Positions 29,330-39,272 of a stretch of DNA of 64,000 bases are shown in pieces (position 1 is the first letter of the stretch; each line of letters opens with the position of its first letter). The translations under genes and the position numbers were made by a program. The DNA comes from Lichenihabitans psoromatis (GTDB lineage: Bacteria; Pseudomonadota; Alphaproteobacteria; Rhizobiales; Beijerinckiaceae): assembly GCF_004323635.1 (NCBI RefSeq), contig NZ_CP036515.1:248001-312000 (forward strand). The letters are read 5' to 3'. Below the pieces are notes generated by a model. It was given only the letters and a program-made list of their open reading frames with translations, made no database searches and was not told where the DNA came from.

Positions 29330-29350
29330 CTGGTTGACTCATCATACCAG
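29330..29350. promoter_or_regulatory. Candidate GntR operator and promoter ahead of the apnO operon
   Basis: CTGGT at 29330 and ACCAG at 29346 form an inverted repeat around 11 bases. The right part contains TCATCATACCAG (29339-29350), a 12-base string found again in the regulator/RLP intergenic region at 36587-36598. It overlaps a TTGACT (29334-29339) that could be the -35 of a promoter with GAATAC near 29555 minus 200, that is at 29355-29360. Such placement suits repression by the GntR protein of this cluster. Confidence 0.45.
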
Positions 29351-29487
29351 TTTTGAATACGGTTGATGAGAGGCGCAAGAGCGGTGCCGAACAGGGATCG
29401 TGCGCCAAGCCCTCCCCGTGACACTCCGCTCGATTGTGCAGCATCGAGCGCAGCCGCCACGGCGATGCGCTTAGGGAGCGAGACGCG

Positions 29488-30315
29488 ATGACCGTGATTG
29501 CATTGTTCGGTGCCGGCGGCAAAATGGGCTACCGGCTCGCCAGCAACCTCAAGGGATCACGGTTCGAGGTCAGGCATATCGAGGTCAGCGACGCTGGCCG
29601 CACGCGGCTGAAGAATGACCTTGGCATCGATTGTGTGCCGCAGGATCAAGCGCTCGACGGCGCGGACGTCGTCGTCCTCGCGGTTCCCGACACGATCATC
29701 GGCAAGGTGGCGCATGCCATCTCGCCCAGCCTCAAGGCGGGCACGATGGTGGTGGCGCTGGACGCCGCCGCGCCCTTTGCAGGGCATCTGCCGGAGCGCG
29801 CGGATCTCATTTATTTCGTCACCCACCCGTGCCATCCGCCGATCTTCAACGACGAAACCGACATGGAGGCGAAGACCGATTATTTTGGGGGCGTCGCGGC
29901 CAAGCAGCATATCGTCAGTTCGCTGATGCAGGGTCCGGATAGCGCCTACGCGCTCGGCGAGGAGATCGCCAAGGTGATTTGGGCGCCGGTCATGCGCTCG
30001 CATCGCGTCACCGTCGAGCAGATGGCATTGCTCGAACCTGGCCTGTCCGAAACGGTCTGCGCCACCTTGCTGGTCGTCATGAAGGACGCGATGGACGACG
30101 TGATCGCCCGCGGCGTGCCGAAGGATGCCGCCCGCGACTTCCTGCTCGGTCATATGAACGTGCTCGCCTCGGTCATCTTCGAGGAACGGCCAGGATTGTT
30201 CTCGGATGCCTGCAACAAGGCCATCGAATTCGGCAAGCCGGTGCTCATGAAGGATGATTGGAAACGCGTGTTCGAACCGCAGGAGATCGCGGCGAGCATC
30301 CAGCGCATCACCTGA
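29488..30315 (+). CDS. apnO: D-apionate oxidoisomerase-like dehydrogenase (ApnO family)
   Basis: A 275-residue NAD-dependent enzyme. It has a short Rossmann domain with [14 protein letters not shown], a [15 protein letters not shown] segment and a helical C-terminal domain of the phosphogluconate-dehydrogenase type ([30 protein letters not shown]). ApnO-type proteins oxidise and isomerise D-apionate to 3-oxo-isoapionate. The co-occurrence here with an RLP, a DUF1537 kinase, an ApsD-like enzyme and a sugar transporter is what supports this specific role. The start at 29488 has GGGAG ahead and begins directly with the Rossmann fold. It is the first gene of the operon; the transporter follows 83 bases later. 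Confidence 0.78.
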
Positions 30316-30398
30316 CGCGCCGGCACCGACCAAGCGGCCTCATCCCACGAAGGCCCGACAAGACAACCCACAACGATCATCACGGGAGGACCATAACA

Positions 30399-36548: not shown

Positions 36549-36613
36549 TTGACACGGGAGGAGCGGCTCCATCACAAAAGGCATGGTCATCATACCAGCG
36601 ATGCGACCGGTAT
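36549..36613. promoter_or_regulatory. Regulator/RLP intergenic control region
   Basis: TTGACA at 36549 is a good -35 element for the RLP operon, although no strong -10 follows at the right spacing. TGGTCATCATACCA (36584-36597) is a TGGT-N6-ACCA inverted repeat that contains the 12-base string shared with the apnO promoter region. A further GGTAT half-site lies at 36609-36613. NanR-type proteins bind GGTATA-like repeats, which fits. Confidence 0.45.
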
Positions 36614-36646
36614 CGTCAAGGCTCGGCACGAGAATGGGAGGAGATC

Positions 36647-37927
36647 ATGCCATCACCGCAGCCACACGAGGTGATCCGCGTCACCTACCGGCTCGAAACG
36701 TCGGGCGACATCGCCGCCATCGCGGCCAAGATCGCCAGCGATCAGTCGACCGGAACCTTCGTGGACGTGCCCGGCGAAACGCCTGAGCTCAAAGCCCGCG
36801 TCGCGGCCCGGGTCACGGCCGTCCGTCCGCTCGCATCAGTGGATCGGCCTTCATGGCCCGAGGCTTGCGCCACAGGCCCCGTTCGGCGGGCCGATGTCGA
36901 CATCGAATTCCCGCTCGATGCCGTCGGGACCGATATCGCGGCGCTCACGACGATTGCGCTCGGTGGGGCCTTCTCGATCAAAGGTCTATCCGGCCTTCGC
37001 ATCGTCGGCCTGACGCTGCCGGCCGCCTTCGGCCGCGATCATCCCGGCCCGCAATTCGGCATCGCGGGCAGCCGCCGACTGACCGGGGTCTACGACCGCC
37101 CGATCATCGGCACGATCGTCAAGCCCGCCCTCGGCCTCCGGCCGCTCGAGACCGCTGCTTTGGTGCGCGACCTTGTCGAGGCGGATGTCGACTTCATCAA
37201 GGACGACGAGAAACTGATGAGCCCGGCCTATTCCAGCCTGGAAGACCGTGTCGGTGCCATCATGCCGATCATTCTCGACCACGAGCAGAAGACCGGAAAG
37301 AAGGTGATGTATGCCTTTAACCTGACGAGCCACGACCCCGAGCGGATGGTGCGGGACCACGACATCATCGTCAAAGCCGGCGGCAATGCCGCCGTGGTGG
37401 CGATCCAGTCGATCGGCTTCGGCGGCATGGCCTTCCTCCGCAAACGATCGAGCCTCGCGCTCCACGCGCATCGCGCCGGATGGGACGTGCTGACCCGGCA
37501 TCCAGGGCTCGGCTTCGATTTTGCGGTCTACCAGCAACTCTGGCGGCTGCTCGGCGTCGACCAATTCCAGATCAACGGCATCGGCGTGAAATATTGGGAG
37601 CCGGACGAGTCGTTCGTGGCCTCGTTCGAGGCCGTGACGACGCCGATCTTTTCGGACGCCGATCGGGTGCTACCGGTCGCGGGCTCGGGCCAATGGGGTG
37701 GGCAGGCGCCGGAGACCTATCGGCGGACCGGCCGAACGGTCGATCTCATGTATCTCTGCGGCGGCGGCATCGTCAGCCACCCCGGCGGCCCAGCCGCGGG
37801 CGTGCGGGCCGTCCGGCAGGCGTGGGAGGCCGCCGTGGCCGACATTCCGCTCGCGGTCTATGCCGAGACTCACCCGGACCTCGCCCAATCGATCGCAAAA
37901 TTCGGAGGCTCCGCCAAGGATGCTTGA
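36647..37927 (+). CDS. RuBisCO-like protein, 3-oxo-isoapionate-4-phosphate processing (OiaX/OiaT type)
   Basis: A 426-residue form-IV RuBisCO homologue. Relative to RuBisCO the first active-site lysine is kept (TIVKPALGL, Lys159) but the second is alanine (KPA for KPK). The carbamylation motif is intact (FIKDDEK: Lys185, Asp187, Glu188), as are HAHR (His275, Arg276), a loop-6 Lys (IGVKYWE, Lys315), SGQWGG and CGGGIVSHPGG. The usual loop His before Lys315 is missing. It therefore cannot be a normal CO2-fixing enzyme. RLPs next to an OiaK-like kinase act on 3-oxo-isoapionate 4-phosphate, by decarboxylation (OiaX) or by transcarboxylation/hydrolysis (OiaT); I cannot tell which. Start 36647 has GGGAGGAGATC ahead; an upstream ATG at 36497 is unlikely. 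Confidence 0.85.
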   Translation: MPSPQPHEVIRVTYRLETSGDIAAIAAKIASDQSTGTFVDVPGETPELKARVAARVTAVRPLASVDRPSWPEACATGPVRRADVDIEFPLDAVGTDIAALTTIALGGAFSIKGLSGLRIVGLTLPAAFGRDHPGPQFGIAGSRRLTGVYDRPIIGTIVKPALGLRPLETAALVRDLVEADVDFIKDDEKLMSPAYSSLEDRVGAIMPIILDHEQKTGKKVMYAFNLTSHDPERMVRDHDIIVKAGGNAAVVAIQSIGFGGMAFLRKRSSLALHAHRAGWDVLTRHPGLGFDFAVYQQLWRLLGVDQFQINGIGVKYWEPDESFVASFEAVTTPIFSDADRVLPVAGSGQWGGQAPETYRRTGRTVDLMYLCGGGIVSHPGGPAAGVRAVRQAWEAAVADIPLAVYAETHPDLAQSIAKFGGSAKDA

Positions 37928-39272
37928 TCCACATGCGCCGCTTCTCGCCTTCTACGGCGACGATCTGACCGGCTCGACCGACGCCATGGAGGCGCTCGCC
38001 CAGCATGGCGTGCCGACCGTCCTGTTCATGCAGCAGCCGACCGTCGAGCAACGCGCACGGTTCAGCGAGGCCCGTGCGATCGGCCTCGCCGGAACCAGCC
38101 GCAGCGAAACGCCCGACTGGATGCAGCGGCATCTCACGCCCGCCTTCGCGTGGCTGCATGGGCTCGGCGCAGAGATCTGCCACTACAAGGTCTGTTCCAC
38201 CTTCGATTCCAGCCCGGAAATCGGCAGCATCGGATGCGCCATCGAGATCGGCGCCGAGATTTTCGGCCAAGCCAACGTGCCGTTGGTGATCGGCGCGCCG
38301 GAGTTGAAGCGCTACACGGCCTTCGGAACGCTTTTCGCGGCCTATCAGGGCGCCACCTATCGGATCGACCGCCATCCCGTGATGAGCCGGCACCCGGTGA
38401 CCCCGATGCACGAGGCGGACCTGCGCCTGCATCTCGCCCGCCAGACGGAGCGCCGGATCGCTCTCGTCGATCTCGCCATGCTCGCGGCCGACGATCGATC
38501 GGCTCGCGTCGACGCGTTGCTGGCGGCTGGCGACGGTGTGGTGATGTTCGATGTCGCCGATGCCAGGACACAAGCAGCGGTGGGCCAAGAACTCTGGCGG
38601 CTGCGCCGGAAGGCTTCGTTCGTGGTCGGCTCGTCCGGCGTCGAATATGCGCTGCTGGGCGCCTGGCGCGCGGCAGGCTTGATCGGCGGCAGCATGGCCT
38701 TTCAGCATCCAGGCCGCGCGGAGCGGATCGCCGTCGTGTCCGGGAGTTGCTCCCCCACCACCGCACGCCAGATCAGCCATGCGGTCGACCACGGCTTCAT
38801 CGGCCTTCACATCGACGCGCAAAGCCTCAGCGGCCCGGACCGGGAGACCGCGATCGCCAATGCCATCGATCGTGGGCTGGCGGTGCTGCAGACCGGCCGC
38901 AGCGTGATTCTCTATACGGCTCTCGGGCCCGAAAGCGACCTTGGCGCGTCGCTCGATCCAGCCCAGGGCGGCCGCCATGCCATCGGCGTCGCCTTGGGCC
39001 GTATTCTGCGTCGGCTCGTGGAAGCCGAAACGCTGACACGCGCCGTCATCGCAGGTGGCGACACGTCGAGCCATGCGTTGCGGGAACTCGACGTCTTCGC
39101 GCTCGAAACCAAGCTACCCTTACCTCAAACGCCGGGATCCCCGCTGTGCAAGGCGTTCAGCGACCAAGCGGCTTTCGATGGTTTGGAGATCGCGCTCAAG
39201 GGCGGGCAAGTCGGCAATGACGATTATTTCTGTCTGATCCGCGAGGGGGGAGCGTCTGCGCCAACGCCCTAA
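37920..39272 (+). CDS. oiaK: DUF1537 four-carbon-acid-sugar kinase family, OiaK-like
   Basis: A 450-residue kinase with the two-domain DUF1537 fold. The N-terminal substrate domain begins LLAFYGDDLTGSTDAMEALAQHG, and the C-terminal nucleotide-binding domain has VVSGSCSPTTARQI, ALGRILRRLVEAETLTRAVIAGGDTSSHAL. OiaK phosphorylates 3-oxo-isoapionate to its 4-phosphate, the substrate of the RLP encoded just upstream. The ATG at 37920 overlaps the RLP stop by eight bases with AAGGA and GGAGG before it, so the two are translationally coupled. A longer frame to 37698 lies within the RLP and is not the start. Confidence 0.82.
   Translation: MLDPHAPLLAFYGDDLTGSTDAMEALAQHGVPTVLFMQQPTVEQRARFSEARAIGLAGTSRSETPDWMQRHLTPAFAWLHGLGAEICHYKVCSTFDSSPEIGSIGCAIEIGAEIFGQANVPLVIGAPELKRYTAFGTLFAAYQGATYRIDRHPVMSRHPVTPMHEADLRLHLARQTERRIALVDLAMLAADDRSARVDALLAAGDGVVMFDVADARTQAAVGQELWRLRRKASFVVGSSGVEYALLGAWRAAGLIGGSMAFQHPGRAERIAVVSGSCSPTTARQISHAVDHGFIGLHIDAQSLSGPDRETAIANAIDRGLAVLQTGRSVILYTALGPESDLGASLDPAQGGRHAIGVALGRILRRLVEAETLTRAVIAGGDTSSHALRELDVFALETKLPLPQTPGSPLCKAFSDQAAFDGLEIALKGGQVGNDDYFCLIREGGASAPTP

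Follow-up and report, generated by a model that had tools for sequence, protein, structure and literature searches.

We analyzed a stretch of 64,000 nucleotides from Lichenihabitans psoromatis (C1:248001-312000, hereafter the window), taken from a genome assembly of 4.84 Mb in three contigs that is 98.2% complete, and focused on nine predicted genes, all of them open frames, that span window positions 29,488-39,272. These genes very probably form a cluster for the import, regulation and upper steps of oxidative D-apiose catabolism, with no lactonase gene among them, a reading to which we assign a probability of roughly 0.88. The upper operon, on the plus strand, runs from apnO, a predicted D-apionate oxidoisomerase (29488-30315; PGDH_C, 243 bits), through the rbsB-type periplasmic sugar-binding protein of an importer (30399-31331; Peripla_BP_4, 200 bits), a DUF2291 lipoprotein (31392-32042; PF10054, 163 bits), an rbsA-type ATP-binding cassette (ABC) ATPase (32039-33628; ABC_tran, 181 bits) and an rbsC-type permease (33615-34697; BPD_transp_2, 139 bits) to apsD, a predicted D-apiose dehydrogenase (34694-35725; GFO_IDH_MocA, 79 bits), with gaps of 83 and 60 bp between the first genes and overlaps at the remaining junctions. 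The second operon, also on the plus strand, consists of oiaX, which encodes a predicted RuBisCO-like 3-oxo-isoapionate-4-phosphate decarboxylase (36647-37927; RuBisCO_large, 245 bits), and oiaK, a predicted 3-oxo-isoapionate kinase (37920-39272; SBD_N, 183 bits, and NBD_C, 106 bits), which overlap by 8 bp. Between both operons, on the minus strand, lies a nanR-type FadR/GntR regulator (35722-36450; FCD, 91 bits, and GntR, 68 bits), placed tail-to-tail with apsD, with a 4-bp overlap, and divergent from oiaX. Each of the nine genes is thus backed by Pfam matches at the place given by the initial annotation, and the spacing agrees with the two adjacent operons that it had proposed. Each operon is preceded by the same 12-mer, TCATCATACCAG, a putative operator found on the plus strand upstream of apnO (29339-29350) and of oiaX (36587-36598).

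The RuBisCO-like protein (RLP) of the window scored 768 bits on the NCBIfam OiaX model (NF042437), passing its cut-off of 700, as did the proteins of Rhizobium johnstonii (780 bits) and of an Agrobacterium plasmid (731 bits), whereas six other RLPs reached 353-456 bits; it failed both MtnW models, with 149 bits against a cut-off of 409 and 116 bits against 513.6. In a tree of 41 rows, the OiaX clade, comprising 21 rows with the window among them, received 100/100 support on a branch of length 1.46, while 17 RLPs forming one clade (95/90), one lone RLP, one MtnW and one form I RuBisCO fell outside it; the tree does not fix the position of the window within the OiaX clade and carries a long-branch warning for the outer rows. 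The RLPs of Agrobacterium radiobacter K84 and Xanthobacter are reported to act on 3-oxo-isoapionate-4-phosphate both by decarboxylation and by transcarboxylation/hydrolysis (PMC6302742). Two arrangements around related genes were also observed. On a plasmid of Agrobacterium tumefaciens HAMBI 105 (L128:5106-7251), oiaX (the 731-bit protein) immediately follows an N-acyl homoserine lactonase family gene (Pfam Lactamase_B), and the region upstream of the pair encodes two aldo/keto reductases together with an ABC transporter; this lactonase-family gene is possibly another lactonase for the same pathway step. Two Roseibium aggregatum plasmids (L138, L143) combine apnO, the importer genes and a kinase that belongs to the OiaX-type kinase clade with an RLP from the other clade.

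The kinase gave a matching picture in its own tree of 36 rows, rooted by hand on two OtnK-type rows, where it fell in a clade of 18 rows (100/99) that includes two Roseibium kinases. It failed the models for the 3-oxo-tetronate kinase OtnK (167 bits, cut-off 350) and the D-threonate kinase DtnK (60 bits, cut-off 450), and an otnK control scored 518 bits on the OtnK model and 124 bits on the OiaK model. By its sequence, the window kinase is therefore classed as OiaK-like, and as neither a tetronate nor a threonate kinase. The initial annotation had held that placement of the RLP and the kinase in tetronate or methylthioribulose clades would speak against an apiose role; both trees were run, and the two proteins fell in the OiaX and OiaK clades instead.

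For three of the upper-pathway proteins, a single solved relative stood out in each case. ApnO aligned with structure 5t57 at 434 bits over 272 of 275 residues, ApsD with 5uhw at 526 bits over residues 3-338 (the next solved family reached 81 bits), and the binding protein with 5ibq at 459 bits (next non-identical family, 209 bits). These structures are labelled, respectively, as a semialdehyde dehydrogenase NAD-binding protein, an oxidoreductase and a probable ribose-binding protein; we take 5t57 to be an ApnO and 5uhw to be an ApsD, while 5ibq presumably contains apiose, all three presumably stemming from apiose work. The regulator passes the NanR subfamily model NF003011 (341 bits, cut-off 260), a label that is a family name and no evidence for sialic acid. 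Conservation was examined by aligning 26 clusters (23 for ApnO) and asking how many columns invariant in all other rows are kept by the window: 72/72 for ApnO, 136/136 for the binding protein, 175/176 for RbsA, 209/209 for RbsC, 132/135 for ApsD, 29/29 for NanR, 211/219 for OiaX and 108/110 for OiaK. Because nearly all of these columns are retained, the gene set is not a chance assembly.

The putative operator is rare in the genome and recurrent among relatives. Exact TCATNATACCAG occurs twice in the whole source genome, both times in the cluster, and its reversed control does not occur; with one mismatch allowed, the window holds 3 matches compared with 0.26 expected, the third lying on the minus strand at 54257-54268. 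Across the 80 best related loci (L001-L080), taking the best site within 260 bp upstream at 11 or more of 12 letters, the site was found upstream of oiaX in 75/80 and upstream of apnO in 61 of the 70 loci that have at least 150 bp of upstream sequence, and the reversed motif reached 11 letters in none of either set (0/80 and 0/70). The loci that lack the oiaX site are L010, L017, L019, L048 and L052. This conservation indicates that the 12-bp site is likely an operator, and its presence before both operons supports their co-regulation, with the NanR-type protein as the factor that, we infer, binds it. When A or T is allowed near the end of the pattern, ten other genomes contain 31 copies of it (reversed control, 0), and most of the 15 copies examined lie in or beside seemingly unrelated frames. 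Further placements were noted: the site precedes the binding-protein gene in seven loci (L028, L030, L053, L070, L073, L077 and L079), six or seven of which are Mesorhizobium, an ABC binding protein in G112 and an MFS gene (Pfam MFS_1) ahead of oiaX in G002; in the same-genus genome G004 (L164, C107) it stands directly before a second RLP, which belongs to the other clade. At L157:2601 and L159:4065, an exact site on the opposite strand lies close to where a second ABC sugar-transporter operon, adjoining the cluster, begins.

The known pathway continues from the OiaX product through isomerase steps, and candidate genes for these steps lie about 152 kb from the cluster, where a LerI-like TIM-family gene and a DerI gene (259 bits, cut-off 240) occupy C1:439385-441725 on either side of a xylose-isomerase-like TIM-barrel frame. 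Genes for a glycerol-3-phosphate dehydrogenase, an aldolase-like protein and an FGGY kinase are found some kb away.

Since the RLP is an OiaX and the kinase is OiaK-like, the window cluster very probably belongs to the known oxidative, decarboxylating D-apiose route, whose source is reportedly Carter et al. 2018. Gene identities rest on homology and trees, and we infer the substrates and the order of reactions in this organism. D-apiose would enter by the RbsBAC-type importer and be oxidised by ApsD to apionolactone, the ring of which would be opened to D-apionate by something outside the cluster, either an unlinked lactonase or spontaneously. ApnO would then convert apionate to 3-oxo-isoapionate, OiaK would phosphorylate it, the RuBisCO-like OiaX would decarboxylate the resulting phosphate, and the LerI- and DerI-like isomerases would take the product to erythrose 4-phosphate, while the NanR-type protein would govern both operons through the two operator copies. 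The expectation that most of the route is present thus holds for ApsD, ApnO, OiaK and OiaX, with apnL absent and the LerI/DerI-like genes elsewhere. If so, a plant-sugar pathway that is already characterised and uses a RuBisCO-like decarboxylase extends to a lichen-associated genus.

Comparison with related systems shows where this cluster is distinctive. The NCBI-annotated OiaX clusters of Rhizobium etli CFN 42 p42f (L137) and R. johnstonii 3841 pRL12 (L082) comprise the same nine gene kinds, with identities between L082 and the window of 74% for oiaX, 80% for apnO, 68% for apsD and 74% for the binding protein. Unlike the window, both have a lactonase gene after apsD (NF049900, 1061 bits for L082) and the order nanR<oiaX-oiaK-apnO...apsD-apnL, and the R. 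etli cluster includes TIM- and RpiB-type genes. Lichenibacterium minor (L017/G002) and Lichenibacterium ramalinae (L122+L123/G003) have importer proteins 77-89% identical to those of the window but an oiaX-oiaK-apnO...apsD-apnL order followed by reversed nanR, with apnL present. The window's own order, apnO...apsD, reversed nanR and oiaX...oiaK without apnL at the locus, recurs in Methylocapsa sp. S129 (L001), Mesorhizobium escarrei (L028) and family f50 (G112, G181, G209, G256); unlike in the window, lerI-derI-like genes separate oiaX from oiaK in S129, and apnO is followed by an MFS-type gene in G181, G209 and G256 (Pfam MFS_1 in the case of G209). The initial suggestion of a new variant therefore stands in so far as the apnL-less arrangement is real, although it is common to other lineages and its enzymes had already been described. 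According to PMC11747546, the D-apiose cluster of strain LCG007 agrees with the window in its five named activities, leaving aside the D-apionolactonase that only LCG007 encodes, and this strain was able to grow on D-apiose. For Escherichia, another apiose pathway, of the transketolase type, is described (PMC13001218).

In an eight-gene tree of 26 clusters, built by a quick method with support from the Shimodaira-Hasegawa-like approximate likelihood ratio test only, the window is sister to the two apnL-bearing Lichenibacterium species, and the apnL state of the locus changes at least three times. Horizontal replacement of oiaX had been suspected because this gene is about 75% identical to both its Rhizobium and its L. 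minor counterparts, the other window enzymes being nearer to L. minor; the oiaX tree gives no placement, and the eight-gene tree groups the window with L. minor.

Some results weigh against the proposed reading. NCBIfam yields no ApsD or ApnO call in the window, the best matches of both being far below cut-off, and the family call of the LerI-like gene, which shares 56% identity with its counterpart in the R. etli cluster, is plain triose-phosphate isomerase. The OiaK model (NF042436) is the best one for the window kinase but reaches 505 bits, below its cut-off of 700; the same holds for the OiaX-adjacent kinases of R. etli NXC12 (476 bits) and R. johnstonii (477 bits). Finally, searches with two proteins and one profile found no ApnL in the locus or elsewhere in the source genome. 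Because the profile matched none of its 14 control genomes, the protein search serves as the positive control for this absence; it found ApnL in 14 of 100 genomes, the source genome being among the 100. Three of the five other same-genus genomes have an ApnL match (G002, G003, G004) and two gave none (G001, G005), G001 also lacking OiaX at 1e-100.

Wider sampling placed this absence in context. Among 297 genomes from the order, the source included, OiaX was detected at E<=1e-150 in 21, of which 15 have an ApnL-family match, the weakest at 37% identity over part of the protein (G112), and six have none (G000, the source, and G145, G181, G208, G209 and G256); misses are possible among the 21, since at most four candidates per genome were scored, although for the source genome all were. 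A full apsD-containing cluster without an ApnL-family match is present in the source genome, G181, G209 and G256, with only four candidates scored in each of the last three. At least 567 relatives were confirmed, and in 76 of the 80 best loci the fetched stretch contains an ApnL match scoring 150 bits or more, the exceptions being L001, L010, L028 and L078. The L010 stretch breaks off within the binding-protein gene, and ApnL sits next to apsD on a different contig of that genome; the L078 genome has ApnL elsewhere, at 56%. Unlike the source genome, the S129 and M. escarrei genomes (L001 and L028, a 46-48% member each) and G112 carry an ApnL-family match (37-48%) away from the cluster.

Candidates for a replacement lactonase were examined and rejected. 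No lactonase is encoded within the locus, and at the position used by relatives there is no room for apnL because apsD and nanR overlap by 4 bp. An unlinked regulon member was not indicated either, as the exact 12-bp pattern is found at only the two cluster promoters in the source genome, and no lactonase was seen by eye in frames near 15 of the 31 pattern copies in the ten other genomes. The source genome has three SMP-30 lactonases; the stretches fetched around them contain a single site with no more than one mismatch, and it falls within the coding part of one, so that none of the three is favoured as a substitute; other lactonase families were not searched. The open-licence literature searched gave no match for apionolactone, or for D-apiose with regulation or rhizobia.

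This absence lends some weight to an alternative that we regard as unlikely, namely that the cluster serves mainly D-apionate, or a weakened apiose route in which the lack of ApnL turns the ApsD product into a bottleneck or a dead end. Consistent with it, the same-genus genome G005 has a minimal cluster, apnO-oiaX-oiaK-nanR (L120, C158:108001-127999), and the 20 kb fetched there gave no match for apsD, the importer or apnL, so there may be forms restricted to apionate; in addition, G145, G179 and G208 carry oiaX, nanR, oiaK and apnO without an apsD match nearby (within 19.9 kb fetched for G145 and G208). Against it, apsD and the importer are retained and conserved in the window (132/135 and 136/136 invariant columns for ApsD and the binding protein), and other lineages share the order that has apsD but no apnL, in keeping with an arrangement that works. 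Although DUF1537 kinases and RLPs occur also in tetronate, threonate and methionine-salvage pathways, and related loci include an otnK beside ltnD and otnI (L140) and an mtnW (L135), the idea that the window RLP and kinase serve such a pathway is highly improbable, as it is contradicted by the model scores and both trees, and no family call for OtnI, LtnD or another Mtn protein passed its cut-off in any of the nine proteins of the cluster.

Returning to oxidative D-apiose catabolism, the apnL state changed at least three times and four apsD-bearing genomes gave no ApnL, which leads us to a broader proposal whose chances we consider evenly balanced: a functional ApnL-independent oxidative apiose pathway may recur in several Hyphomicrobiales lineages, using a non-orthologous unlinked lactonase or no enzyme, with TCATNATACC(A/T)G as the hallmark of a small regulon. 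The cluster raises the question of how genomes with ApsD but without ApnL open apionolactone, and the conserved 12-bp site offers a simple signature by which to trace and test the apiose regulon across Hyphomicrobiales.

Outside the cluster, seven flanking genes were tested, none of which obviously belongs to the apiose pathway; two gave no Pfam match at 1e-5, and the other five matched DUF3833, Oxidored_molyb, NAD_binding_10, Glyoxalase and EamA.

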